Below are positions 10,845 through 63,730 of a DNA stretch of 64,000 bases, piece after piece (the stretch's first letter is position 1; each line of letters opens with the position of its first letter). The notes under the pieces are model-generated. The model made no database searches, was not told where the DNA came from, and was given only the letters and a program-made list of their open reading frames with translations. The position numbers were made by a program, and so were the translations under genes. This stretch comes from Planktothricoides raciborskii GIHE-MW2 (GTDB taxonomy: Bacteria; Cyanobacteriota; Cyanobacteriia; Cyanobacteriales; Laspinemataceae): the NCBI RefSeq assembly GCF_040564635.1, contig NZ_CP159837.1:5257001-5321000 (forward strand). Direction: 5' to 3'.

Positions 10845-11718
10845 GTGCGATTCGTTCCCCTCCAAAGTGGAAGCAAAACGGCTGAAACGTCGTGTGGGTG
10901 TCGGTTTGAGTAACGAATAGTCTAAGCCGATGAACGGCTCCACAAACCCTTATAACTGTGGTGAAAGTTGTCCAATAAGGAGGACAATACCCGGATTTCC
11001 TGGAATTATAATTACATTCCAGGGGTAATAGGCAAACGCCCGTCCTGAACCCTCTTAATCACTAAGTAGCGAAACTGGTTGATCCGCTGCGTTCAAAATG
11101 GATAACATGGGGAATAAGTGGGTAATTATTTGATTAACCCACAAAAGTCAAAGTAAGCAGTAGACAAGGCTTTGATATTGAAGTCCTAAAAGTACCCAGG
11201 GGGATAGGGTGGACTATTAGCTAATTATACCCGAAACCACGGAACGAAGTATCCCCCCCTATTGGCTCTCAAAGCAATTTGAGTAGTGATAAGTGTAAGG
11301 GCAAGCCTTTGTGGGGGTCAGATGTATCCAGAAGCAAAAGACTGGGGTAATGCCTGGTATATGCAGAGGGGATACGGCGGTAAAGTTAGTCCTAACATGG
11401 TTTACCTGAATACGTTATCAGCCACCTGCAAGGGTAGGAATAAATTAAAACATTCATTGTGCGTACAGTGAGCGAAAGCTGAGTGGGTAATTGCCCCCAA
11501 GATGCATTTGAATGCAATACATCGAACGGCCTGAACCGAACCATCAAGGCGGCATCGTCCCACGGGTCAAAGTGAGAAGACTATGCCAAACGGGATAGTG
11601 CAAGCTACCCTAGTAGGAGCCAAGTAAAGCGAGTACCGCCCGGAGCGGCAGGGTCGTGAAAGTGGCACGTTCCGTTTTGAATGGGAGGTCAGAGGAGCGA
11701 TTCTCTGATCTACCCCTA
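10845..11718 (+). mobile_element. ORF-less group II intron
   Basis: The sequence starts GTGCGATTCGTTC, a group II 5' end, and closes with a domain V-like hairpin (GGAGCGGCAGGGTCGTGAAA...GTTCCG, about 11644-11678) and a domain VI stem (AGGTCAGAG / CTCTGATCT, about 11686-11712). Internal blocks such as CCTGAACCCTCTTAATCAC and AAGTAGCGAAACTGGTTG match the intron copies near 58.3 kb and 63.6 kb. At about 874 bases it has no room for a reverse transcriptase, and only a 61-codon chance frame lies inside. It is a member of the outer-intron family at 56.1-63.3 kb that has lost its intron-encoded protein and would depend on one supplied in trans. The exact 3' boundary is uncertain by a few bases. Confidence 0.82.
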
Positions 11719-12857: not shown

Positions 12858-13263
12858 ATTTAACCCAAAAAATACCTGCGAGCAGCAAAGAAATAATTTC
12901 AGAACATATGGATATTTTCGGACTGCACGGAAAAATCTTTCTTCCTCCCTTGATTCCCGCCAATCTTACCCGCCAATGAAAGCTTTGTCATCCATCAGAT
13001 ATCTGACAAACAGATATCTGACAAAATTGGCCTGTCTGCTGCCGACGATTGATTGCCTCGGACACGAAGTCCGCGATATTGCATCCGCAACGCCGAAGCG
13101 AACGCCCCTTGACCGGAAAAGTAATGCGGTATGGCGGTTGAGCAAAAATATTCTCTCTCGGTTAGGGGGTTAAAGCAGAGGTGGCACCAATATGACCGAA
13201 TATGACCGAACCAGCACAATCCGTGATTAGTCCAGGTGATTCACTTCCTTACTTTATCCCATT
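12858..13263. other. Spacer upstream of scpA with dispersed repeats
   Basis: No gene seen. It contains a direct duplication AGATATCTGACAAA (about 13004-13031), one exact copy of the 27-bp GCGATATTGC repeat (13073-13099) running into CGAACGCCCC, and a duplicated ATATGACCGA (near 13190-13207). Confidence 0.55.
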
Positions 13264-13760
13264 AGGGGTAGATGGGGAAATCGCTCTCCCCACCTCCCAT
13301 TCAGAACCCAGCGTGCCACTTTCATGGCACTAGGCTAGGCTCCTACCCACGTTGACCCCTTACATGGGTACGACTACCAGAGTGGTAATTCTTCCTCCGC
13401 CCTTGGGCGCTTCCGCCATATCTTGACTTTAAGTCGTGACAATGAGCATGAAGCAATTGCAGGTTTTTGTATTCATCCTTTCCGCCTTGGCTTCTAGGAA
13501 TGATATGGTCTACTTCTAGCAGGTCGCTGCTTGTGAAGTATTGTCCGCAATATGGGCATTTACCCTTTTGCTGAAACAGCAATTTTGCCACTCTCGTAGG
13601 GGCTTCGATGTCTTGTCCTCGCCTGGTACTCCAGTAAAACCAGTTTCCGTCGAATGGTGATTTGTCAGGCTTGACTAGGGTATGTCGTTTGATTTCGACA
13701 TCCGCGTGTTTCCATAGCGTCAGTCCGTCTTTTGTTGCAAACGTCCATTTGCCGTGTCTA
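13264..13760 (-). pseudogene. 3' fragment of a group II intron with HNH end of its encoded protein
   Basis: On the minus strand this encodes the C-terminal part of an intron reverse transcriptase (GRHGKWTFATKDGLTLWKHA, TLVKPDKSPFDGNW, YWSTRRGQDIEAP) running in frame into an HNH nuclease domain (CPYCGQYF...LLEVDHIIPRSQGG...LHAHCHDLK). Domain V (GTGCCATGAAAGTGGCAC) and domain VI follow, ending near 13264. The reverse-transcriptase core and the intron 5' part are missing: at about 13760 the sequence switches abruptly to a tnpB remnant on the other strand. It is close to the protein at 56382-57941, but here the RT-HNH junction is in frame, whereas there it is broken. Confidence 0.85.
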
Positions 13761-13762
13761 CC

Positions 13763-14462
13763 TTACCAGTCATGCTATATCCCAAAATCTGCCGTTAAGC
13801 CTCGGGGCATATACCACAAAATTTTGGGTCAACTTGACTATGCAGAAGAGTTGCCGGAAAACTTTGGGGACTGTCGGTTAGTTCTTGTCCGCGGGCAGTA
13901 TTATCTGTGCGTCCCCTCATCCGGGCCTACCACCCATCAGCCCGACAACCAAGGGCGGGTGGTAGCCTTAGACCCTGGAGTTAGAACATTCCTAACCTTC
14001 TTTTCTGAACAGAAAGTCGGGAAGATAGGAGAGTCAGATTTCTCCAGGATTCAACGTCTATGTCATCACCTCGACGATCTGATTTCTCGATTTAGCTGCG
14101 TAAGCGCCCCGCAACGGCGGCGGATGAAAAAAGCCGCTGACAGGATCAGGGTCAGGATTCGCAACCTGGTAGATGAATTGCATCCGCATTGCCGCCAGAT
14201 TTCTGGTAGACAACTTTGATGTAATTCTCCTGCCAACGTTTGAGACTTCAAATATGAGCCGCAAGGCCACAAGAAAAATCCGCTCAAAGACTGTGCGGAA
14301 TATGCTTTCATTTGGGCATTACCGTTTCGAGCAATTCCTGAAACATAAAGCAACAGAGCGCGGGTCTCTGGTGGTGGATGTCTGTGAAGCGTACACCAGC
14401 AAAACGGTTAGCTGGACTGGTGAGATTCGAGCAATTGGCGGGGCGAAAACGGATACCTTTTT
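13763..14462 (+). pseudogene. tnpB: tnpB remnant, 5'-truncated and frameshifted
   Basis: Remains of an RNA-guided nuclease TnpB from an IS200/IS605 or IS607 element. It begins inside the gene (KSAVKPRGIYHKI...), carries the RuvC-I motif VVALDPGVRTFLTF with its catalytic Asp, and runs through basic helices to NLVDELH. A one-base insertion near 14180 moves the rest to another frame (AARFLVDNFDVILLPTFETS...VCEAYTSKTVSWTGEI with the RuvC-II Glu). The amino-terminal third is lost to the junction with the intron fragment. At about 14462 the gene stops matching, because its tail is inverted (next entry). Confidence 0.85.
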
Positions 14463-49800: not shown

Positions 49801-51685
49801 CCGTCATCGGATTCAAATCAGCCTTATTAATACCGCCGACGCCGATTTCATCGGTGTCTAAGTCAACGAGTTCAGTCAATAAGCTCAAATCTAAATCATC
49901 TTCCGAGAGATCCGGAGTATCCTGAATATAAGTGCTTTCGCTCATGGTCAGCGAACTTAAATTAGAAGAACTGTTATAACCCGAATCCTGATTCATTTCT
50001 GAGAAGAAAACTTCATCGTCTCCATCCCAGATGATCTCTAGGTTTTCTGCCGCTGATTTAGAGCCTATATTTTCAATTTCATTTTCCCAATGTATGTCTA
50101 ATTCTTCATCAGAAGCTTCATCAAATAAACTATTTAAATCCTCAAATTGTGAAACAGATGATGATGATTTGGCATCAGAAGCATCATTTAAGTCATCAAT
50201 TTCAAAGATGTCTTCAAAAGAATTATCAGACTGATCGGCGATATTTTTTTGTGACTTTATTCCTGAATCCGCTTCATTTTCATTAATAAAAACCAGTTCA
50301 TCAAAGAAATCATCATCATTTTCTGCTTCTAATGATTGGGCATAATTAGGCGAATTAGTTGATCTACTTTCCGGCAAATCTGACTCAGCAAAATCCAATA
50401 ATAAATCAGAAAAATCTTCCTCATTATTCTTGTCCGAGTTACTTTCTGAATTTGCTAAATTTTCTCTTGGTAAAATTTGCTCTGCTTCCGCAAATAATTC
50501 TTCATTCCATCCAGCGATTTCTTCACCGTCAAATAAATCTTTTAACGTATTCAGTTCGTCCATGCCTACTTCTGGTCCTTTGAGTTTTTCCTGTCCCGAA
50601 TGTTTATAGGTAGTTTTGCCCGTATTACTACTTGGCAAAGAAATCACTTTAGACGGATTTTTAGGGGCAGCGGAAGTTGAGTCGGATGATAAACTTTTTA
50701 TGGATTCTAGTTGTGAAATCAACCAGTTATTGGGTGAATCGGGGGAATTAGGGGTCATTGTTATAAATGTTTCTGAGTTTAGGTTAGTGGTATTTTTATC
50801 AATGGAAGTATTTTCTGCTACTACGGGCGGCAACAACAATTTTAGCTCTTGGCTCGGTTGAATTTCCGTTGACTTGCCGGTAAGTACGAGTTGCCGAGCC
50901 TGTTTAATTTCTTTAAGAATGACTGGAGCCAGAGCATGATATGTTTTGTGAGTGTTTTGGCAGGTGAGAGTCACGATTTGAATCAGTTCACTCCACTCTC
51001 GAAGTTCAAACGTTTCACCCGCTTGGAGTAAGTTACGGCAAATTTCGCCTAAATGTTGTCGGCTAGACGCTGTATCTGGTTGTTTAAAAGTTTCTAGCAT
51101 AAGTTGCAACAACTTAGGCACATCACTTTTAAAAATTAATTGGAGTGCGCTATCTTCTAAGAGTGTTGGTTGATTCATCGGTGCAGGCTGAATCATCGAG
51201 TCCAAGGGTGCGGCTCGGTTAGCGGGTCTGGCTTGAGATCCATGAACCGGAGTAAACACCCGTGGTTTTTCGTTCAGGCTGTTTAAGTGGCCCATCAGTT
51301 CTTTAATCGTTGGTTCAGCTTTGGCTGTGATTTCAGCGGCATCTTGTTCCGTTAATCCTTGACCACTGGTGAACTGAGCAAATAATCGTTTTAGGGAATC
51401 AAAAGTCGATAAAAGTAAAGATTCTAGAGTTTGATCGATGTCAATGGGAACTTCTTTGAGGACTTTAAAACTATCCTCAAGTGCATGGGCTATTTGTTGA
51501 ATGCTATTGATACCAAGCATTGCCGCTCCCCCTTTAATGGAGTGAGCCGCTCGAAAAGCTTCGCCGATCTTGTCTGGATCTGCGACCGTCATGGTCAGAT
51601 GAAGTAAGCTTTGATCTATGGTATTGAGGTGTTCTTTCGTTTCCTCAATAAAGTAGCCCATGATTTTGTTCTGTTCCGACGACAT
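46814..51685 (-). CDS. CheA-type hybrid histidine kinase with receiver domain (PilL-like)
   Basis: Chemotaxis/pilus-motility kinase of 1623 residues. HPt domain at the start: His48 in FRAAHSIKGGAAMLG. Residues about 380-960 form an acidic, Asp/Ser-rich linker of low complexity. A CheA dimerisation helix pair follows (from about 975), then HATPase (about 1130-1290: HLVNNALAHGIE, GAGIDAERVKA, GRGVGLDVVRT), a CheW-like domain (about 1340-1470) and a C-terminal receiver (about 1490-1615: LIVDDSITVREL, phospho-Asp in FCDIEMPRMDG, LTSRG, KPY). In other cyanobacteria it is the last gene of an operon with PatA, CheY, CheW and MCP homologues. Those are absent: only transposons and introns lie upstream, starting about 30 bases from the ATG. 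No strong Shine-Dalgarno is seen. Confidence 0.93.
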   Translation of the reverse strand: MSSEQNKIMGYFIEETKEHLNTIDQSLLHLTMTVADPDKIGEAFRAAHSIKGGAAMLGINSIQQIAHALEDSFKVLKEVPIDIDQTLESLLLSTFDSLKRLFAQFTSGQGLTEQDAAEITAKAEPTIKELMGHLNSLNEKPRVFTPVHGSQARPANRAAPLDSMIQPAPMNQPTLLEDSALQLIFKSDVPKLLQLMLETFKQPDTASSRQHLGEICRNLLQAGETFELREWSELIQIVTLTCQNTHKTYHALAPVILKEIKQARQLVLTGKSTEIQPSQELKLLLPPVVAENTSIDKNTTNLNSETFITMTPNSPDSPNNWLISQLESIKSLSSDSTSAAPKNPSKVISLPSSNTGKTTYKHSGQEKLKGPEVGMDELNTLKDLFDGEEIAGWNEELFAEAEQILPRENLANSESNSDKNNEEDFSDLLLDFAESDLPESRSTNSPNYAQSLEAENDDDFFDELVFINENEADSGIKSQKNIADQSDNSFEDIFEIDDLNDASDAKSSSSVSQFEDLNSLFDEASDEELDIHWENEIENIGSKSAAENLEIIWDGDDEVFFSEMNQDSGYNSSSNLSSLTMSESTYIQDTPDLSEDDLDLSLLTELVDLDTDEIGVGGINKADLNPMTDSSTNLDDDLSYDELFSIADENESGLSLESDRRKASMASATESLEDLFGDLLESEKNVEEISAPKAVTISEDFADIFSDHEVSLDDLDLEHNSLDTQEDEPKLNFDSVETPEKRKATVDFSDLDNLFNDAAFVSANSSLNFEEMEEETEELDDLGLNDLNFGNEFVTKLLTNTDQYSADLNSLLERELSELNELSSANNSELFDDLLSPESVDIFDELDAGAISADASSNVSNPEDEFSVLESLLAQKFAPSSSSSVNFSALEKILDLSPTALKVDFNELEAFLNQKVIQNSEPLWLTELQEFLAPQKSDRLKPAQTEPIKGSESSREKSTQTFKTHSDSTAKKTRGGMTYETMRVPVKQLDNLGNLIGELVVNRNTLEQDQERMRQFLDNLLHQVQNLTDVGQRMQDLYERVLLEIALLSSRKNHFMPDGSLQIAHSTGHDLSVFEMDKFTPFHILAQEILELIVRVRESASDIEFLVDETDQVTRQLRQITNKLQEGINRSRMVPFAQITDRLPLGVRNNSIKFGKQVELVVEGAETLIDKMILESLNDPMTHLVNNALAHGIELPEERQRKGKPPTGRITVRAFHQGNQTVISVSDDGAGIDAERVKAKALDKGLITPAEAKTLSRLEVYDLLFAAGFSTKDQADDLAGRGVGLDVVRTNLSSIRGVVNTDSTLGKGTSFSIRVPLAFSISKALICISDRARIAFPMDGVEDMLDVPRDKIQTVSKDDREETFIPWRDTMLPFRPMRELLVYHRHMGRGSVFGGNAEEDIISVVVLRSAGNYLALQVDQVLGEQEIVIKQLEGPVPKPVGVAGATVMGDGRIVAIADVLELIDLAAGRITDKASTIWEDRIIPEETVEKEQPTVLIVDDSITVRELLSMTFNKAGYRVEQSRDGQEAWEKLKSGLPCDIVFCDIEMPRMDGLELLSRLQKDPQLSHLPMAMLTSRGAKKHMQMAIDMGARGYFTKPYLEEALLDAASRMLKGEVLVLSKTEV

Positions 51686-51713
51686 GGCTTATACCATTTC
51701 TATGTGTGAGTGA

Positions 51714-52547
51714 GGTTTCAAAAGTCGGCAAAAAGATTAATTTGTAATTTTTTACCAAAAAAGATGCTGATTTGTTATGTAAATCCTTAATTAAGTTTTG
51801 GATTTTGCCACGAATCCTGGTCGCTGCTTTACGCATTTGATAACGTTGACGCTTGTGGTCAGATCTAGCAATTTTACTCATTAGATTGTCAAGATGCGTA
51901 CAGAGTCGATTGATTCTGCCGATGTCGTTCTTACCAATCTCTAAAATCGTTGACCCATCATAGCCCGTTAAAAAACTGCGAACTCCTGGATCTAAAGCAA
52001 TCACTCCCGTCTGGGAAGTTTCCGTAGGTTCTCGATATTCAGGAAAAACTCCAAACCATAAGCCTTTCTGATAAAGAAGTTGAGTTCCATAACGGCATTG
52101 CTGTGGGATTTTTTCGGCTGATTTGAACTCAAGTCCTTTAGTTGCCTGACAATACCAAGTCCCGTTCTTGAAATTACCTACCTTGAATTTAATCACTTGA
52201 TCAAAAGCGCGACAAGACTTAAAAGAGGCATTCCCGATATTGGCTTTGGCTTGTTTATGAGCATCTACGGCGTCTGCTACAGCTTCTTGTAACTGGTGAC
52301 CCGGCAATTCTTTGACCCAATCAGGACGATTTTCCTCGCGAGCTAAAGCTTGTAATGAGAACGCTGATAAGTTGGGTTTATTTCTCAGGTAAGCAATCGT
52401 CCAGTTATAAATCCAGCGATAAGCAGCTAACCATTTTTTCCACAATTGATGAAGTTTTTTACAGGGATATATTCGGATTCTCTTGACGGCATTCTGAGTC
52501 CGTTTCGTCGTTGAGTTTCTGGCTTTTTTCTTGAAGCACTTTTTCAA
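51714..52547 (-). pseudogene. tnpB: IS607 tnpB, 3'-truncated
   Basis: RNA-guided nuclease gene of the same IS607 unit as the recombinase gene at 52459-53085, overlapping it by about 90 bases. From a TTG at 52547 it reads KKCFKKKARNSTTKRTQ, then WLAAYRWIYNWTIAYLR, GVIALDPGVRSFLTGY with the RuvC-I Asp, and LIKDLHNKSASFLV...PTFETS. There the homology stops, and the next codons run into the upstream region of the CheA gene. The RuvC-II and RuvC-III residues, the element's right end and the guide-RNA region are lost. It must be inactive as a nuclease. Confidence 0.85.
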
Positions 52548-53085
52548 CTTGTTTTTTGTATTTTCGCAGTCCGTATAGCCTTGCAGAAAAGCAATGGAGG
52601 ATGGACAGGATATCTTCAACGAGTTCTCTTTCTGGAGAGAGATTACGTTGATTAAGAACCACGAGTTTGCATCCAGCTTGGTCGCATAACCACTCAATAA
52701 GCGGGAATCCAAATCGGACGATTCTATCGGGGTAAGCGCAGACAAGGCATCCGACATCAGCCCGGTAGATTCGCTCCAAAATGGCGATAAGTTTTTTCCG
52801 CTTAAAATTGAGTCCGGAGCCAATTTCTTGAACAATTTCAGATGACGGATATGCGTGGCGCAAAAATTCAACTTGTCTAGACAAGTCATCTCGCTGGGAA
52901 TAACTAGAGACTCTTGCATAGCAAATAGTTGGTTTCGCGTCCTGCTCGTACTCAACAATTGCAAATCGGCGCTGCCCCCCTGGGGTTCGGATGGACTTGA
53001 TTTTTCCTTGTTTGTCCCATCGCCGCAATGTACTAATGGCAACTCCAAGAGATTCAGATGCTTCTCTGGGCGTAACATATTTCAT
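52459..53085 (-). CDS. tnpA: IS607-family serine recombinase TnpA
   Basis: This 208-residue site-specific serine recombinase has an N-terminal MerR-like helix-turn-helix (TPREASESLGVAISTLRRWDKQGKI) and a resolvase catalytic domain with the active-site Ser in YARVSSYSQRDDLSRQ. Later motifs are VCAYPDRIVRFGFPLIEWL and ELVEDILSILHCFSARLYGLRKYKK. Full length and in one frame, so it looks intact. It mobilises IS607 elements by a circular intermediate; the element's right end is missing here, so it is probably stranded. Confidence 0.92.
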   Translation of the reverse strand: MKYVTPREASESLGVAISTLRRWDKQGKIKSIRTPGGQRRFAIVEYEQDAKPTICYARVSSYSQRDDLSRQVEFLRHAYPSSEIVQEIGSGLNFKRKKLIAILERIYRADVGCLVCAYPDRIVRFGFPLIEWLCDQAGCKLVVLNQRNLSPERELVEDILSILHCFSARLYGLRKYKKQVEKVLQEKSQKLNDETDSECRQENPNISL

Positions 53086-54623: not shown

Positions 54624-56044
54624 CAGCAATTCTCATTTTGGCAAAAAACTGTTCAAGTCCCCTTGAGACCTGTATGGTAATGATATCTGCAAAACCCAAG
54701 AGAGCCAGAGCCCTTGAAAAAGCCAGGTTGGTTTGACACTGTAGTGAGTTCTTTTCGCGAGCGCTTGTCGTCGCTACCGGACAAGCGCCGAGGTAAAAAT
54801 ACCCGCTATGGAATGGAGGATGCTGCGTTGAGCGCATGCAGGGGTGTTCTTCACCCAAACCCCGTCCTTCCTGGCCTACCAGCGCAAGATGGCAGGCAAT
54901 AAGGGTCAAAGCAATGCTCAAAGCCTGTTTGGAGTGCATAAGATTCCTTGCGACAACCACATCCGGGACTTGCTCGACGGGGTTGTGGCGGAGGAGCTGT
55001 TTCCCGTATTCGAGGAAATCCTACAGATGTTGGACGAACAGGGTCAGTTGAAGGACTTCCGGTCTGTGGCCGACACCCTGTTGGTTGCTATGGATGGGAC
55101 GGAATACTTCAGTTCAACTCAAATCCACTGTCCTGGCTGCTCGACACGCACCTTGAGGTCAGGAGACATTCAACACTTCCATAGCGTGGTCACTCCAGTC
55201 ATCGTCTGTCCAGGGCAGACTCAGGTGATTCCGTTAGTCCCTGAGTTTGTCCGCCCCCAAGACGGTCATGACAAACAAGACTGTGAGAATGCCGCTGCGA
55301 AGCGGTGGTTGAACCAGCATGGTCCGAGCTTGAGTCGCTTGAAGGTAACGGTGTTAGGCGATGACTTGTACTGCCACCAACCCCTGTGTCAGCTACTGTT
55401 AGACCACCAGTTGGACTTTATCTTGGTCTGTCGCCCAGATTCCCACACTACGCTTTATAACCATCTTGAGGGGATTGACCTACCAACAGTCATCAGCAAA
55501 AGGTGGACGGGAAAAGTTGAGGAAACCTGGACTTACCGATATCTCAATGACTTGCCCCTCAAAGACGCGGCGGATGCGCTGTTGGTGAACTGGTGTGAGG
55601 TAACTGTCAGCCGTCCTGACCAAAAGGTGATTTACCATAACGCCTTTGTGACCCGCTACACCCTTACTGATGATAACGTAGCTGAGATTGTTCAAGCCGG
55701 TCGCACTCGTTGGAAGGTTGAGAACGAGAATAACAATACCCTCAAGACCAAAGGCTACCATCTCGAACATAACTTCGGCCATGGCAAACAGCATCTGGCT
55801 GCCTTTCTGGCAACTCTGAATATCTTGTCCCTACTCTTTCATCCGCTGCTGGAGCGGCTCGACGAGAAATATAAACGGCTGCGAGGCCATCTGCCGACTC
55901 GCCAGACCTTTTTTGATGATTTACGGGCTTTAACCCGGTATCTGTATTTCGACAACTGGGATCACCTGCTCACCTTCATGCTCCAGGGACTTGAGCTAGA
56001 GATTCCCCCCAATAGCAGTTAAATTTCCAAAATGAGAATTGCTG
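54624..56044 (+). mobile_element. 1.4-kb DDE insertion sequence with 9-bp target duplication
   Basis: Terminal inverted repeats CAGCAATTCTCATTTTGG and its exact complement (54624-54641, 56027-56044). The 9-bp direct repeat AGGGAATAA flanks them on each side (54615-54623, 56045-56053). Perfect ends and duplication indicate a fairly recent insertion. The transposase inside is frameshifted (next entry). Confidence 0.92.
54714..56022 (+). pseudogene. DDE transposase, frameshifted near its start
   Basis: From a TTG at 54714 it reads KKPGWFDTVVSSFRERL, SSLPDKRRGKNTRYGMEDAALSA. A one-base insertion near 54837 then displaces the frame, and the gene continues from 54844 as FFTQTPSFLAYQRKM to 56022. 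Catalytic candidates are Asp in LLVAMDGTEYF, Asp in VLGDDLYCHQPL and Glu in RWKVENENNNTLKTKGYHLEH, followed by NFGHG. The family resembles unclassified (ISNCY-type) transposases of cyanobacteria; I cannot fix the name. Without the insertion it would be about 436 residues. Confidence 0.8.
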
Positions 56045-56191
56045 AGGGAATAACCACTAAACTAATCAACGATTTTAATTAATATTAGGGGTCGATGGGG
56101 AAATCGCTCTCCCCACCTCCCATTCAGAACCCATCGTGCCACTTTCACGGCAATAGGCTCCTACCTAATTTGACCCTTTTCATGGGTACGA

Positions 56192-57941
56192 CTACCAGAG
56201 TGGCAGTTCTTCTTCCTGTTGCCCTTGGGCGCTTCCGTCATATCTTGACTTTAAGTCGTGACAATGAGCGTGAAGCAATTGCAGGTTTTTGTATTCATCC
56301 TTTCCGCCTTGGCTTCTAGGGATGATGTGGTCTACTTCGAGCAGGTCGCTGCTTGTGAAGTATTGCCCGCAATATGGACATTTACCATGCATGCTTTTTC
56401 AGCAGTTTTGCCACTCTTGTGGGGGCTTCGATGTCTTGTCCTCGCCTGGTACTCCAGTAAACCCAGTCGCCGTCATACGGAGATTTGTCAGGCTTGACTA
56501 AGGTATGTCGTTTAATTTCGACGTCCGCGTGTTTCCATAGCGTTAGTCCGTCTGCTGCGGCAAACGTCCATGTACCATGTCGGCCTTTGCGGTAATACTT
56601 GCGTATTGCTTGGGCTTTTTGTTTTCTTCCACGTCTACTTACTGACCATGCTCTGAGCATTTGCCAAAGAACCATGTCTTCTGATGAGAACGTTTCCTTA
56701 GCTGCTACCCCTGAATAGTAGTTTGCCCACCCTTTAATCATTGGATTTAATCTACCAATGAGTCCCGCTTGCGGGGCTGTTTTGTGGGTCTTAATAACTT
56801 CTTTTAGGGCTACATGGTGAGCTTTGATTGCTTTCTTACTCGGCTTAATCAGGGTTTTATATCCCAGTAGTTTCCCTTGGGGGTTTTTCCCTGATTTGTG
56901 TTTTCCAACTGGATATTGTCGGATGTTGAATCCCAAGAAATCAAAACCGGGAGTTACAGTCAATTCACTTCCTGTAACCAACTGATTAAGGGTGTGACAT
57001 ATCCTGGTTTTTTCTGGTTTTAATTCCAGACCAACTGGTTTTAGCCAAGCTTCAATTGCCGCTTTAGCCTTATGGATGACCTCTAACTCTGGGTGTAGTA
57101 CCACAAAATCATCGGCGTATCTAATGATTCTGACAGGGGGTGTGTATAAGCCTTTTTTGCTGTACATAGGAAATTGACTTTCTACATCCCGAATCATCCC
57201 ATCTAGTGCTATGTTGGCCAAAAGGGGTGAGATAACCCCACCTTGGGGTGTACCTGCCTCTGGCTTTTCAAAGGCTCCTCTGTCCATGATTCCGGCTTTT
57301 AACCAAATTTTTACTTGGTGTCGGATTTTTGCTGGACATTGGAGCTTTTTCAGTAAGTAAATGTGGTTGATTTTGTCAAAACATTTGGATATATCCGCAT
57401 CCAGAACATAGTTAGGTTTCTTGTTTATTACAAGATATATTCTGGCTACGGCGTCATGTGTTGACCTACCTGGCCTAAAACCATACGAGGTTTCCTCAAA
57501 TTGGGATTCCCAATACGGCTCTAGTGCCATTTTTACCAATGCCTGACGCGCTCTATCCTCTATTGTTGGTATCCCCAGGGGGCGTTTTTCATCCCGTCCG
57601 GGTTTTGGTATCCATACTCTGCGGACTGCTTTGGCCTTATTGGTTAGTGACAGTCTGGAGGCCAGGCTGAGCCTTTGTACGGGTGTTAGTGATTTTATCC
57701 CGTCTACCCCGGCTGTCTTCTTTCCTCTATTGAGTTGGGTTACTTGCCTTACGGCGAGTAGTTTCGCGTAGTATGACTTTAACAGTAGTTTTTGAAGCCC
57801 TTTTGCTATGACCTCGTTGCCCTTACTAGCCGCTCTGTAGATTCTCTTTTGGAGCTTGAACACTTTCCGCTGTACTAATTTCCAGGGGATTCCGTTCCAT
57901 TCCACCATCGACTTTTGTCGTGTTTTGGACATATATATCAC
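56192..57941 (-). pseudogene. Reverse transcriptase/maturase of the outer intron, HNH domain out of frame
   Basis: Codons from 57941 to 56382 encode 519 residues: RT fingers/palm with LGIPTIEDRARQALVKMAL, SYGFRPGRSTHDAV, GTPQGGVISPLLANI and the active site IRYADDFVVL, then the maturase X domain (FDFLGFNIRQY, RLNPMIKGWANYYSG) up to TRRGQDIEAPTRVAKLL. There a one-base gain relative to the copy at 13264-13760 puts the HNH nuclease (CPYCGQYF...EVDHIIPRSQGG, 56192-56392) in another frame. The RT and maturase may still work; target-strand cleavage should be lost. Confidence 0.88.
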
Positions 57942-58500
57942 TACTTGAGACTCTACAATTCAACTTAGGCACAGGCTGTCAGCATATACCAGTTATTAGG
58001 CTGGTCTTTGGCTTCTGCACTGCATCTCTCACCCATGTGGCTTGCGCTTACACTTATCACTACTTAGGATTATCGACCTATCCTGAGAGCCAATATGGGC
58101 TTTAATTCGTTCCGTGGATTTGGGATTATTAGTTTTAGGATGCTGCCCTCTCCCCCTGGGTACTTTTGGGATTTCGTTAATACGTGAGATATACAACTCC
58201 GTATCTTTGTAGGCAACCACAGAATTTACCTACCCATTCCCCGTGACCTTTTTGGTCGCAGCGTATCAACCAGATTTCGCTACTTAATAATTGAGAGGGT
58301 TCAAGTCGGACAGAAAGCCTCACGGCTGACCTTGACTAATTGGCTCGAAGGGATTCCCTTACTGGTTAAGCGTTACCTCCTTTTCAACCCGCTTCACACC
58401 AGTGAATAGTGAGTCTCCGGGTGGGGCTGATGCCTAATTACCCCTGACAATTTTTAAATCTTTGTTAAGATTCTTCTTTTGCCAGAAAATCCGGGTATTT

Positions 58501-60838
58501 GGTCGGGTAAGGTTCAGGGATTACTCCCCTCCCCTCCCCTAAGAACCGGACTTGACACTTTCGCATCATCCGGCTCAAGCCTTATTTCAAGCGATTGGAC
58601 TTGGATTTGCTGTGTACCTGCTTATGACACGCTTGGTGTAAATGCACAAGGTTTTCAATGTCGTTTTTTCCCCCTTCTGCAACAGGTACTATATGGTGGG
58701 TTTCGATTTCCTCCCGGTTGAATAAAGGTTCGCCACAGATAGGGCATTTCCAGTTTTGGTTTTGAGCGATTTTATAATTCCGGGAGTTTTTCTCCCAGTA
58801 GCTCTTACCATATTTCTGGTGACGTTTTTCCCAGTATTCCTTGAGGCTCGGATCGTCCGGTGACGCTTCCCCTTTGACCTTTACATGGCGCTCGATTGGG
58901 GTGTAAGCTATTGGGTAGAGAATTATTTCTACCTCTTTTCCTCGTCGTTTGTCTGTACCTGTACAGGCAAACGTCCACTTATTGCCTTTTATGGTCTTAA
59001 AGTAACGTTTCCGAATCCATTTTGTGTTTTTGTTGGGATGCCGACGCTTCGCCCAACTCCAAAGGTAGTACCACACTCTTGATGAGATGTAGCTGAAGGT
59101 TACTTTGCTCACTACCCCTTTGTAGTAGTTAGCAAAACCTCGGAGAATCGGATTTAGCTTTTTAATGACTACTTCCTGTTCACAACCATTCATTGCCTTT
59201 ATTTCTTCGCCTATCCTTTTACAGAAGGCTAGAACCTTCTTTTTGGATGGTTTGACAAGCAGTTTGCCGTTATAGTGGCGGTGGTTGAAACCGAGAAAGT
59301 CAAAGCCGTCTTCTATTGATGTAATAACCGTTTTCTCCGTGCTTAATTCAAGTCCTCTTTCTGATAACCATTGCTGGATTCTGGTCTGGGCTTTTTCAAG
59401 ACTTCCCTTGTCTCTGGCAGTAACTATAAAGTCGTCTGCATACCGCACAATGCCTAATTTTGAATTGGTGGTTTTAACGAGTTGTTCCAAACCATGCAGT
59501 CCAATGTTGGCTAGTAGGGGTGAGATTACCCCTCCTTGCGGTGTTCCCGTCTTTGTGGGGTTGAATTCCCCTTTGAGAACATAGCCAGCTTTTAACCATC
59601 TTTGGATTAAATCCCTTTTAGGGAAGTTTCCTAATTGTTTCAAGATGGATTCATGGGCAATGTTATCGAAAAATCCTTTGATGTCAGCTTCTAAAACCCA
59701 AGTGTCTCTGCCTTTACAAAGTCTGATAAAACTTTGTTCAATGGCATCTTGACAGCTTCTTCCGGGTCTGAATCCGTAGGAATTTGGCTCAAACACGGGT
59801 TCCCATTCGGGTTCTAGTGCGTTCATTACTATTGCCTGTTCGATTCTGTCGCGCAAGGTTGGGATTCCTAGCGGTCGTAACTTTCCGTTTGGCTTTGGTA
59901 TCATTACCCGTTTGGTTGGGCTTTGAGTTCCGCCTCTCCAGTTGTTTACCAGCTTCACCCTTTGCTCTGGGGTATTGACTATTTCCTTGTCAATTCCTGC
60001 CGTTGCTTTTCCTTTATTGGTTTGGGTGATTCTCCTCACTGACAATAGTAAGTTTGCGTGGCTTCTTAACATTAACTTTTGTAGACTTCTCAGTTTACGA
60101 AAGTTACCAAGTTTTCTCGCGAGAAAGATTCTTTGACGTAAATTCCTAACCAGCTTGTTGACTTTTCGCCAGTTAATTTGGCTCCAGTCTTCCAGTGGTT
60201 TCTTTAGTCCGTTTGTTGCATTTGGTTGCGACATCTAACTTGTCCTCAGATACGGTTTTTATTGTCTGGTCTCTTTCTCATAAGACCCAAGGCAAGTCTG
60301 CTGTTCCTTTCGGTCAGGGGCAAATTTTGAACCCCTATCCTCCTTATTACAGGGAGGCTTTCGCTTTTTGCCTCATCCTTTACCCCCCAGAGAGTTCTGC
60401 TTTCCTTACGGTCTGCTTACTACGGGATTCGACCTTCCCATAGACTCTGTGGGGTTTACCCTGTTGTATCATTTGGTTGTCCGTTCTCTCGTTAGGTGCT
60501 GCCTCTCCTGCGGTGGGGTTTTGATCACACGCCTTGATGAAGAAAAAACATCAAAACCACCCACTTACCTTTTGGTTCGAGCCTGTCAGCCTTATTTGGC
60601 TCGTTCCTAAATTACGCAGTTTGAATGACAGTTCATTTTCATTCACCGTTGAGAGACTCCCTCTTGCTCCTAACCGGCTTAGGCTGCTGGCTTCGGCTAC
60701 GTTCGGGGTCTGCATTCCGCCTGTTTCGTTACCTACTGGGGCGTGACCATACCATTTCTGGTATTTTCCGCGAGGGTAGGGGGTGTGACTCCCCTAGTAG
60801 AGCCGGCTCTACTTACCAATTGACCTTTCAGGTCGCAC
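58501..60838 (-). mobile_element. Inner group II intron B, complete
   Basis: The 5' end GTGCGACCTGAAAGGTC is at 60838; domain V (GAGCCGGATGATGCGAAAGTG...AGTCCGGTTC) and domain VI lie at about 58590-58505, ending CTTACCCGACC. 2338 bases, with an intact reverse transcriptase inside. It is nearly identical to inner intron D next door and inserted in domain I of the outer intron. Confidence 0.9.
58582..60234 (-). CDS. Group II intron reverse transcriptase/maturase/HNH endonuclease (intron B)
   Basis: A 550-residue intact intron-encoded protein that splices its RNA and inserts it into DNA by target-primed reverse transcription. RT motifs: GIPTLRDRIEQAIVMNAL, SYGFRPGRSCQDAIEQSF, ADIKGFFDNI, GTPQGGVISPLLANIGL and the catalytic VRYADDFIVTA. 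The X/maturase part follows (FDFLGFNHRHYNGKLL, LNPILRGFANYYKG). The C-terminus is a complete HNH nuclease: CPICGEPLFNREEIETHHIVPVAEGG, then NLVHLHQACHKQVH. It is the only fully intact intron protein in the window and may serve its broken relatives in trans. Confidence 0.95.
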   Translation of the reverse strand: MSQPNATNGLKKPLEDWSQINWRKVNKLVRNLRQRIFLARKLGNFRKLRSLQKLMLRSHANLLLSVRRITQTNKGKATAGIDKEIVNTPEQRVKLVNNWRGGTQSPTKRVMIPKPNGKLRPLGIPTLRDRIEQAIVMNALEPEWEPVFEPNSYGFRPGRSCQDAIEQSFIRLCKGRDTWVLEADIKGFFDNIAHESILKQLGNFPKRDLIQRWLKAGYVLKGEFNPTKTGTPQGGVISPLLANIGLHGLEQLVKTTNSKLGIVRYADDFIVTARDKGSLEKAQTRIQQWLSERGLELSTEKTVITSIEDGFDFLGFNHRHYNGKLLVKPSKKKVLAFCKRIGEEIKAMNGCEQEVVIKKLNPILRGFANYYKGVVSKVTFSYISSRVWYYLWSWAKRRHPNKNTKWIRKRYFKTIKGNKWTFACTGTDKRRGKEVEIILYPIAYTPIERHVKVKGEASPDDPSLKEYWEKRHQKYGKSYWEKNSRNYKIAQNQNWKCPICGEPLFNREEIETHHIVPVAEGGKNDIENLVHLHQACHKQVHSKSKSNRLK

Positions 60839-60868
60839 TCTTCCATTTAGGACAACAAATCCACAGTT

Positions 60869-63203
60869 GGTCGGGTAAGGTTCAGGGATTACTCCCCTCC
60901 CCTCCCCTAAGAACCGGACTTGACACTTTCGCATCATCCGGCTCAAGCCTTATTTCAAGCGATTGGACTTGGATTTGCTGTGTACCTGCTTATGACACGC
61001 TTGGTGTAGATGCACAAGGTTTTCAATGTCGTTTTTTCCCCCTTCTGCAACAGGTACTATATGGTGGGTTTCGATTTCCTCCCGGTTGAATAAAGGTTCG
61101 CCACAGATAGGGCATTTCCAGTTTTGGTTTTGAGCGATTTTATAATTCCGGGAATTTTTCTCCCAGTAGCTCTTACCATATTTCTGGTGACGTTTTTTCC
61201 AGTATTCCTTGAGGCTCGGATCGTCCGGTGACGCTTCCCCTTTGACCTTTACATGGCGCTCGATTGGAGTGTAAGTTATTGGGTAGAGAATTATTTCAAC
61301 CTCTTTCCCTCGCCGTTTGTCTGTACCTGTACAGGCGAACGTCCACTTATTGCCTTTTATGGTCTTAAAGTAACGTTTCCGAATCCATTTTGTGTTTTTG
61401 TTGGGATGCCGACGCTTCGCCCAACTCCAAAGGTAGTACCACACTCTTGATGAGATGTAGCTGAAGGTTACTTTGCTCACTACCCCTTTGTAGTAGTTAG
61501 CAAAACCTCGGAGAATCGGATTTAGCTTTTTAATGACTACTTCCTGTTCACAACCATTCATTGCCTTTATTTCTTCGCCTATCCTTTTACAGAAGGCTAA
61601 AACCTTCTTTTTGGATGGCTTGATAAGCAGTTTGCCGTTATAGTGGCGGTGGTTGAAACCGAGAAAGTCAAAGCCCTTTTCTATTGATGTAATAACCGTT
61701 TTCTCCGTGCTTAATTCAAGTCCTCTTTCTGATAACCATTGCTGGATTCTGGTCTGGGCTTTTTCAAGACTTCCTTTGTCTTTAGCAGTGACTATAAAGT
61801 CGTCTGCATACCGCACGATGCCTAGTTTTGGGTTGGTGGTTTTAATGAATTGTTCCAAACCATGCAGTCCAATGTTGGCCAGTAGGGGTGAGATTACCCC
61901 ACCTTGCGGTGTTCCCGTCTTTGTGGGGTTGATATCCCCTTTGAGAACATAGCCAGCTTTTAACCATCTTTGGATTAAATCCCGTTTAGGTAGGTTTCCT
62001 AATTGTTTCAAGATGGATTCATGGGCAATATTATCGAAAAATCCTTTGATGTCAGCTTCTAGAACCCAAGTGTCTCTGCCTTTTTGAAGTCGCATAAAAG
62101 TCCAATGGCATCTTGACAGCTTCTTCCGGGTCTGAATCCGTAGGAGTTTGGCTCAAACACGGGTTCCCATTCGGGTTCTAATGCATTCATTACTATTGCC
62201 TGTTCGATTCTGTCACGCACGGTTGGGATTCCTAGCGGTCGTAACTTTCCGTTTGGCTTTGGTATCATTACCCGTTTGGTTGGGCTTTGAGTTCCGCCAT
62301 TCCAGTTGTTTACCAGCTTCACCCTTTGCTCTGGGGTATTGACTATTTCCTTGTCAATTCCTGCCGTTGCTTTTCCTTTATTGGTTTGGGTGATTTTCCT
62401 CACTGACAATAGTAAGTTGGCGTGGCTTCTTAACATCAACTTTTGCAAACTTCTTAGTTTGCGAAAGTTACCAAGTTTTCTCGCGAGAAAGATTCTTTGA
62501 CGTAAGTTCCTAACCAGCTTGTTGACTTTTTGCCAGTTAATTTGGCTCCAATCTTCCAGTGGCTTCTTTGGTCCGTTTGTTGCTTTTAGCTGCGACATCT
62601 AACTTGTCCTCAGATATGGTTTTTACCGTCTGGTCTCTTTCTCATAAGACCCAAGGCAAGTCTGCTGTTCCTTTCGGTCAGGGGCAAATTTTGAACCCCT
62701 ATCTCCCCATTACAGGGATGCTTTCGCTTTTTGCCTCATCCTCTACCCTCCAGAGAGTTCTGCCTTCCTTGCGGTCTGCTTACTATGGGATTCGACCTTC
62801 CCATAGACTCTGTAGGGCTTACCCTGTTGTGTCGTTTGATTGTCCGTCCTCTCGTTAGGTGCTGCCTCTTCTGCGGTGAGAGTTTGGCCACACGCCTTGA
62901 TGACCATTAAGCACCAAGGCCACCCACTTTACCTTTTGGTTCGAGCCTGTCAGCCTTATTTGGCTCGTTTCACGATGACGCAGTTTGAATGGCAATTCAT
63001 TTTCATTCACCATTGAGAGAGTCCCTCTTGCTCCTAACCGGCTTAGGCTGCTGGCTTCGGCTACGTTCGGGGTCTGCATTCCGCCTGTTTCGTTACCTAC
63101 TAGGGCGTGACCATACCTTTTATGGTATTTTCCGCGAGGGTAGGGGGTGTGACTCCCCTAGTAGGGCCGACCCTACTTACCAAACGACCAGTTCAGGTCG
63201 CGC
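60869..63203 (-). mobile_element. Inner group II intron D, near-identical to B
   Basis: 2335 bases, with the same 3' end as intron B (CTTACCCGACC) and a 5' end at 63203 that reads GCGCGACCTGAACTGGTC where B has GTGCGACC. It is separated from B by 30 bases of outer-intron sequence (60839-60868). Its encoded protein is frameshifted. Confidence 0.88.
60950..62598 (-). pseudogene. Intron D reverse transcriptase, frameshifted
   Basis: Two overlapping frames (62598-62059 and 62095-60950) together match the 550-residue protein of intron B almost residue for residue. The break lies just after RPGRSCQDAI: where B has GCCATTGAACAAAGTTTTAT, D has GCCATTGGACTTTTAT, a net loss of four bases. The downstream part keeps the VRYADDFIVTA active site, X domain and full HNH motif, but translation from the natural start ends about 13 codons after the break. 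Confidence 0.92.
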
Positions 63204-63350
63204 TAATAGTTCGTGACTTACGAGTCCAGGCGGGTGCCTGTTAGTACACTGCGTCAACCTAAACCATTACCACGCGCACATTTCGGGTGTTACCCTCCAT
63301 TTTCCGCGTGAACGAGTCGCACTTGTGGTTTTATTATAATCTAAATAGTG

Positions 63351-63730
63351 GTGCGATTCGTTCACGCGGAAAGTGGATGGTAATACCTGAAACGTTCGCG
63401 TGGTCTGGGTTAGAGGCAACCCTAGAACCCAGATAACTCTCAAGGTGTTTGGGATAGTCCCGTAAGACCTGGATTCCAGAGAGGACAACACCTCTCTAGG
63501 TCATCGACACTAGGCCCGGAGACTCACTATCTTCCCTTGTGAAGCGGGCTAGAAAGCTGGTAAGGATTAAGCAGATATCCAAGATAGCCAGCAAGTCAAG
63601 CGCTCATAGGTAGCGAAAGCGAACTCCTGACTTGAACCCTCTTAATTATTGAGTAGCGAAACTGCTTGAAACGCTGCGCCCAAAAGGGCAAAGGGTTAAG
63701 GTGACGAACTTATTTGCTCAGTCACAGAAC
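63351..63730 (+). mobile_element. 5' part of another group II intron, plus strand
   Basis: Starts GTGCGATTCGTTCACGCGG. It carries the same domain I blocks as the outer intron and the ORF-less intron: CCCGGAGACTCACTATC, GTGAAGCGGGCT, CTTGAACCCTCTTAATTATTG, AGTAGCGAAACTGCTTG. Similarity fades after about 63730, so it is either a 5' fragment or continues in diverged form beyond the window. It faces away from the outer intron, whose own 5' end lies 28 bases to the left. Confidence 0.75.

Follow-up and report, generated by a model that had tools for sequence, protein, structure and literature searches.

Twintrons of bacteria and organelles, nesting within domain I, repeated nesting, and nests with several inserts are each known separately (PMC2882425, PMC4649490, PMC4424553, PMC4476101, PMC5572947). 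In the cyanobacterium Thermosynechococcus elongatus, identical copies of TeI3 occupy diverged copies of TeI4, a conserved intron site is reused, and ORF-less introns can move with the help of one IEP supplied in trans (PMC2882425). The locus described here appears similar in all of these respects. However, each outer intron of T. elongatus contains one inner intron, located in domain IV, where it lies between a pair of start codons belonging to the IEP gene (PMC2882425), whereas the present outer intron contains two, located in domain I and carrying different guides. In Tr.e.I7-Tr.e.I8 from Trichodesmium erythraeum, also a cyanobacterium, both introns carry an IEP and the inner one resides in domain I of the outer one, as observed here, and sequential splicing of the domain I nest was demonstrated in vivo (PMC4649490). 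That twintron comprises a single inner intron and is located in a protein-coding gene, whereas here two sibling introns lie 31 nt apart and no coding exons were identified.

Repeated site-specific homing into introns, without coding exons, is a feature shared with the arrays of Methanosarcina acetivorans (as described in PMC4424553), although these arrays are archaeal and contain up to five nested introns, in contrast to a side-by-side pair in one domain and other combinations elsewhere in the genome. The complex twintrons of the Eutreptiella and Euglena plastids also have more than one internal intron per external intron, but they have been described as highly degenerate (PMC5572947), unlike the bacterial introns of this study, which retain full D5/D6 and one intact IEP. 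Finally, the plastid twintrons of Porphyridium involve identical inner introns at the same target site of two diverged outer introns, with one inner intron per outer intron, in domain IV (PMC4476101). Our search of the open-access literature retrieved no report of guide-distinct sibling introns adjacent to each other in one domain of a bacterial intron, and this looks like a new arrangement. The genome displays most of the steps of nest formation, since the outer intron is found empty or filled at site 1, at site 2, at sites 1 and 2, and at sites 1 and 3. It may therefore serve as a natural system for the study of changes in the target specificity of bacterial mobile introns, of the persistence of defective introns on the enzyme of a sibling, and of the ordered removal of stacked introns, a matter linked to ideas of how spliceosomal introns arose.

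Boundaries of the nested introns

The window, i.e., the whole stretch of 64,000 nucleotides that was analysed (G000:C1:5257001-5321000), was reported in a preliminary description to contain three nested group II introns on the minus strand. The Rfam D5/D6 matches and the uninterrupted copies of the outer intron establish the boundaries of these three introns. We consider it very probable that they form a complex group II twintron, in which two guide-distinct inner sub-lineages were separately inserted into an older, multicopy outer intron.

The outer intron (63322-56084, minus strand), the junctions of which were read from uninterrupted copies, is present as three pieces. Piece A (63204-63322), which has the 5' end GTGCG and comprises the initial 119 nt of domain I, was delimited by copy alignment. 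Piece B (60839-60869) is a sliver of 31 nt that belongs to domain I and separates the inserts, corresponding to an interval of the empty copies. Piece C (56084-58501) extends from the remaining part of domain I through domain VI, based on copy alignment and on the Rfam D5/D6 match. Inner intron 1 (60870-63203; 2334 nt) occupies site 1 and inner intron 2 (58502-60838; 2337 nt) occupies site 2, both on the minus strand and both delimited by Rfam D5/D6 and an empty site. Their 5' ends are GCGCG and GTGCG, respectively, and both terminate by CCCGAC. The Rfam Intron_gpII (D5/D6) matches ended at positions 58502, 60870, and 56084 of the minus strand, with RF00029 scores over the full model of 58.3, 58.3, and 46.2 bits for the two inner introns and the outer intron, respectively. 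The catalytic domain V and domain VI were detected by Rfam in all three introns of the nest, and the domain V of the outer intron keeps its hairpin fold despite substitutions in comparison to L016 (L numbers designate loci compared with the window).

Piece A aligned with the 5' ends of the copies in L016, L024, L020, L019, and L023 and in G001, a genome of the same genus, the 5' flank being different in each copy. Piece C was 89-94% identical to L016, L024, L020, and L019. The ORF-bearing outer copies have a common terminus, CCCCTAAT, and diverge beyond it, indicating that the 3' end of the outer intron is at position 56084 rather than at about 56095, as initially proposed. The other proposed ends, those of the inner introns and the 5' end of the outer intron, were at most 1-2 nt off. 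The outer remnant between the inserts was also present as described, except that it comprises 31 nt (60869-60839) instead of 30, and the near-identity of the inner introns was borne out (95.2%). Searching relatives for the neighbourhood of the window did not reveal a locus free of the outer intron.

Domain I of the outer intron across the inserts

The ORF-less, uninterrupted relative of the outer intron present in the window (10845-11718, plus strand) had been chosen as the reference for the ancestral junctions. Both sites are indeed empty in this relative, but closer references are available in the same genome, namely L016 and L024, which are full-length, uninterrupted, and ORF-bearing. In these two copies, the empty site 1 lies between CACGAACCATTA and TAACTGTGG (i.e., CCATTA followed by TAACTGTGG), and the empty site 2 lies between AAATGGAGGA and CAAATACCCGG (i.e., GGAGGA followed by CAAATACCCGG). 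Following in silico removal of the inserts, both junctions of the outer intron aligned with L016, L024, the ORF-less copies (L010, L023, and 10845-11718), and six G001 copies. Piece B is the exact between-site interval of the uninterrupted copies, without any duplication of outer sequence.

Folding the rejoined outer intron as a single sequence was uninformative by itself, and comparative pairing was used instead, based on an alignment of 16 sequences comprising the nest and 15 other copies, 12 of them uninterrupted and 3 rejoined likewise. The sliver CUGUGGAUUUG pairs with CAAAUCCACGG of piece C, near the 3' end of domain I, in 172 of the 176 cells of the 16 sequences, and one position of this helix displays five standard pair types (A-U, U-A, G-C, C-G, and U-G). 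Compensatory changes were also observed in the hairpin interrupted by inner intron 2 (UUGUC/GACAA), for which 76 of 79 cells are paired. Pairing holds in 110/112 cells for the basal stem of domain I (UUCGUUC/GAACGAA) and in 123/128 cells for the stem formed by UAAUGGUU and AACCAUUA, which terminates exactly at site 1. Both inserts thus sit between strands pairing across them, inner intron 2 splitting a hairpin. The preliminary description located both insertions in domain I and named the folding of the joined outer sequence as one point on which its claim depends. The alignment of the 15 copies across the junctions, together with the covariation and compensatory pairs of the helix joining pieces B and C, supports both. 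The empty-site copies and the cross-insert pairing identify the outer intron as a restorable host for the inner introns, as expected for a twintron.

Occupancy of the sites at other loci

The genome contains seven near-full-length copies of the inner intron, six of which are located in outer introns at site 1 or 2. In addition to the nest, site 1 is filled in L017, L019, and L022, and site 2 is filled in L020. L019 and L020 are single-site occupants, at site 1 and site 2, respectively, and L018 is a solo inner copy with no surrounding outer intron. Inner intron 2 is 100% identical to the inner intron of L020 over 2,337 nt, the corresponding outer introns being about 90% identical. The inner introns of the nest (inner 1), L017, and L022 display 99.3-99.8% mutual identity, and the piece A sequences of L017 and L022 are 77-78% identical to that of the window. 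The inner intron of L019 (L019:3467-5804), with 99.6% identity overall, resembles inner intron 1 in its 5' part and L018 in the remainder and is probably a recombinant. Inner intron 1 differs by 0.6-0.7% from its closest relatives, whereas inner intron 2 is identical to its own, a weak hint that inner intron 1 may have been inserted first.

A second double nest (L022:10136-17366; genome positions about 5331135-5338367) was found about 10 kb beyond the window. It combines an intron of the inner 1 type at site 1 with a member of a third inner family at site 3, which lies just past the basal stem of domain I (GGAACGAAGT followed by the intron 5' end GTGCG) and is also filled in L021. The site 1 intron of L022 is in turn interrupted by an inserted segment, which shows an apparent 8-bp repeat, CTTAGGGG. 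We considered that L017 might be a composite intron, with an outer 5' end and an inner 3' end, generated by hybrid splicing and re-insertion. This possibility was rejected since the inner 3' end is directly followed, from the TA onwards, by a transposase-like element (L017:6719-8501), and the two flanks map to different contigs of the relative. The remainder of the outer intron is missing at L017.

Both sites were empty in all six outer copies read in G001, a genome in which the closest sequence to the inner family reached only 67% identity, with the reservation that G001 is in 110 contigs, so that absence from it is not proof. This suggests that the spread of the inner family took place in the present lineage, after the split from the G001 species. 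The ends of G001 contigs C10 and C80 (L110:1-124 and L136:1-2370) overlap by >120 nt, with CAAACGAGAA on one side and TCTACAGAGCGG on the other, which suggests a fourth inner intron inside the IEP gene of an outer intron. The outer family has thus been used repeatedly as a landing pad. Relatives of the inner intron in named cyanobacteria were surrounded by sequences with no significant match to the outer intron, and these were of no help for the history of the nest.

Guide sequences and independence of the two insertions

The two inner introns are in the same orientation but differ in their EBS loops. The EBS positions given here are inferred, having been assigned by eye from the variable loops. 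For inner intron 1, EBS1 (UAAUGGU) pairs with IBS1 (ACUAUUA) at 7/7 positions, with one wobble, all pairs being Watson-Crick on L024, and EBS2 (UCGUGA) pairs with IBS2 (UCACGA) at 6/6 positions. For inner intron 2, EBS2 (UUUAGG) pairs with IBS2 (CCUAAA) at 6/6 positions and EBS1 (UUUUCUU) pairs with UGGAAGA at 6/7 positions, with two wobbles and one mismatch. Both inner introns thus have matching EBS-IBS pairs at their own sites (13/13 and 12/13, respectively). By eye, the EBS1 of the L019 inner intron does not fit site 1.

Guide scoring of both strands of the window (about 128,000 positions) gave inner intron 1 a combined EBS1 and EBS2 score of 12.5 of 13 at its own junction, which is the sole position of the window to reach that score. 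On the uninterrupted copy L024, its guides scored 13 of 13 at site 1, the best place by a wide margin. The match of inner intron 2 is weaker, since 29 other positions of the window score equal to or higher than its junction and site 2 of L024, which has a different sequence variant, is outside the best-scoring places, yet it seems unlikely to be fortuitous at a position fixed beforehand (about 2 chances in 10,000). In cross-tests, each inner RNA scored poorly at the site of the other. The unique score of inner intron 1 and the location of six of the seven inner copies at these two sites exclude chance.

The different guides, the existence of the single occupants L019 and L020, and the complete identity of inner intron 2 to the inner intron of L020 indicate that the two insertions are independent and recent, most likely directed by the guides. 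Recombination could also have duplicated a single insertion in tandem, as the 95.2% identity and same orientation of the inner introns might suggest, but this scenario is extremely improbable: the sliver is precisely what separates the two sites in empty copies and no part of the outer intron occurs twice, the guides and the 5' ends differ, with each guide fitting its own site, and same-site relatives elsewhere are closer than the neighbour (99.3-100% versus 95.2%). Barring later gene conversion of both copies, the sliver and the guides contradict a duplication. The genome also carries many outer copies and seven inner copies that are nearly identical, a situation that gives rise to misassembly, and the preliminary description raised the possibility of a chimera between repeats. 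We regard this as very improbable because the genome is a single 7.2-Mb contig, the three outer pieces pair mutually and match one copy family, the boundaries agree to the base with the guide pairing, and occupancy of site 1 only, of site 2 only, and of sites 1 and 3 is found at other loci with their own flanks.

Intron-encoded proteins, intron ends, and activity of the nest

Inner intron 2 encodes an intact 550-aa reverse transcriptase/maturase with a C-terminal HNH-like region (58582-60234, minus strand), which matched TIGR04416 (E = 1e-105) and whose best solved relative is the maturase reverse transcriptase 6me0_C (E = 2.3e-136). The outer IEP (519 aa; 56382-57941, minus strand), the frame of which is lost before the HNH-like region, had the same best solved match and also matched TIGR04416, identifying both proteins as intron-encoded reverse transcriptases/maturases. 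We take 6me0_C to be the 4h maturase from T. elongatus, the CL/IIB type being a candidate class for these introns. Among named organisms, the nearest relatives of the inner IEP were from cyanobacteria. The frame of the HNH-like region is also lost in L016, L024, and L019 and is retained in L020.

The 550-aa IEP is likewise intact in the inner introns of L018, L019, and L020. In contrast to these copies, inner intron 1, L017, and L022 have a 4-nt deletion in common, by which the IEP is divided into parts of 179 and 381 aa. In the nest, the N-terminal ORF spans positions 62059-62598 and the C-terminal ORF, which contains the reverse transcriptase with YADD and the HNH-like end, spans positions 60950-62095, both on the minus strand. 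A split but functional reverse transcriptase was considered for inner intron 1, as the dN/dS was about 0.2 past the frameshift, but many of the differences are clustered and match other copies, which indicates gene conversion, and no selection is claimed. The GUGYG and AY ends are present in inner intron 2 and in the outer intron, whereas inner intron 1 begins with GC. A GCGCG start, instead of GUGCG, is common to all four site 1 occupants (inner intron 1, L017, L019, and L022) and is combined with an intact 550-aa IEP in L019. The frameshift and non-canonical 5' end of inner intron 1, the difference in guides, and the occurrence of several nests in the genome go beyond the preliminary description.

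The outer family would function as a landing pad, with two sites 31 nt apart in domain I. Each inner RNA would reverse-splice into the DNA site chosen by its EBS sequences and be copied by an IEP (retrohoming). Since the IEP of inner intron 1 is frameshifted, the intact IEP of inner intron 2, or that of another copy, probably serves inner intron 1 as well. The presence of frameshifted copies in three different outer introns is most simply read as mobilisation of inner intron 1, L017, and L022 in trans by an intact sibling IEP, in the manner of the ORF-less introns of T. elongatus (PMC2882425). The inner introns would be spliced first, making the outer domain I contiguous and able to fold, and the outer intron would be spliced last, the dependence of the splicing order on the inner introns being a reasonable suggestion of the preliminary description. 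Taken as a whole, it is possible, although somewhat short of an even chance, that the inner family shifts its guides and thereby partitions one family of host introns, that the GC lineage, its own reverse transcriptase being broken, relies for its spread on the enzyme of an intact sibling, and that the double nest is spliced in turn by one shared maturase, thereby restoring the host.

Solely in terms of present activity, the twintron explanation has a serious rival, itself clearly below an even chance, in which the inserts were acquired by retrohoming and splicing was subsequently lost. Such a dead pile-up is consistent with the truncation of the outer IEP and with the position of the nest, flanked by a relic on one side and a transposase-like gene on the other, where splicing would not be under selection. 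It is also consistent with the GCGCG 5' end and frameshift of inner intron 1. Due to these two changes, inner intron 1 may be poorly spliced, which may leave the outer intron dead. Conversely, four site 1 occupants have the GC start and three of these are also frameshifted, being 99.3-99.8% identical in diverged outer introns, indicating that neither change prevented a recent spread of the frameshifted lineage. The presence of domain V in all three introns of the nest is a further argument against a dead pile-up.

Surroundings of the nest

A degenerate 5' part of an outer-type intron (63351-63688, plus strand) is located head to head with the outer intron, at a distance of 28 bp. A transposase-like ORF is present at positions 54844-56022. 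Overlapping ORFs at positions 51645-53085 resemble, by eye, proteins of the TnpB and serine recombinase types and may belong to an IS607-type element. Elsewhere in the window, a 3' fragment of the outer type (13261-13764), extending from the end of the IEP gene to domain VI, is 88% identical to the outer intron of the nest.
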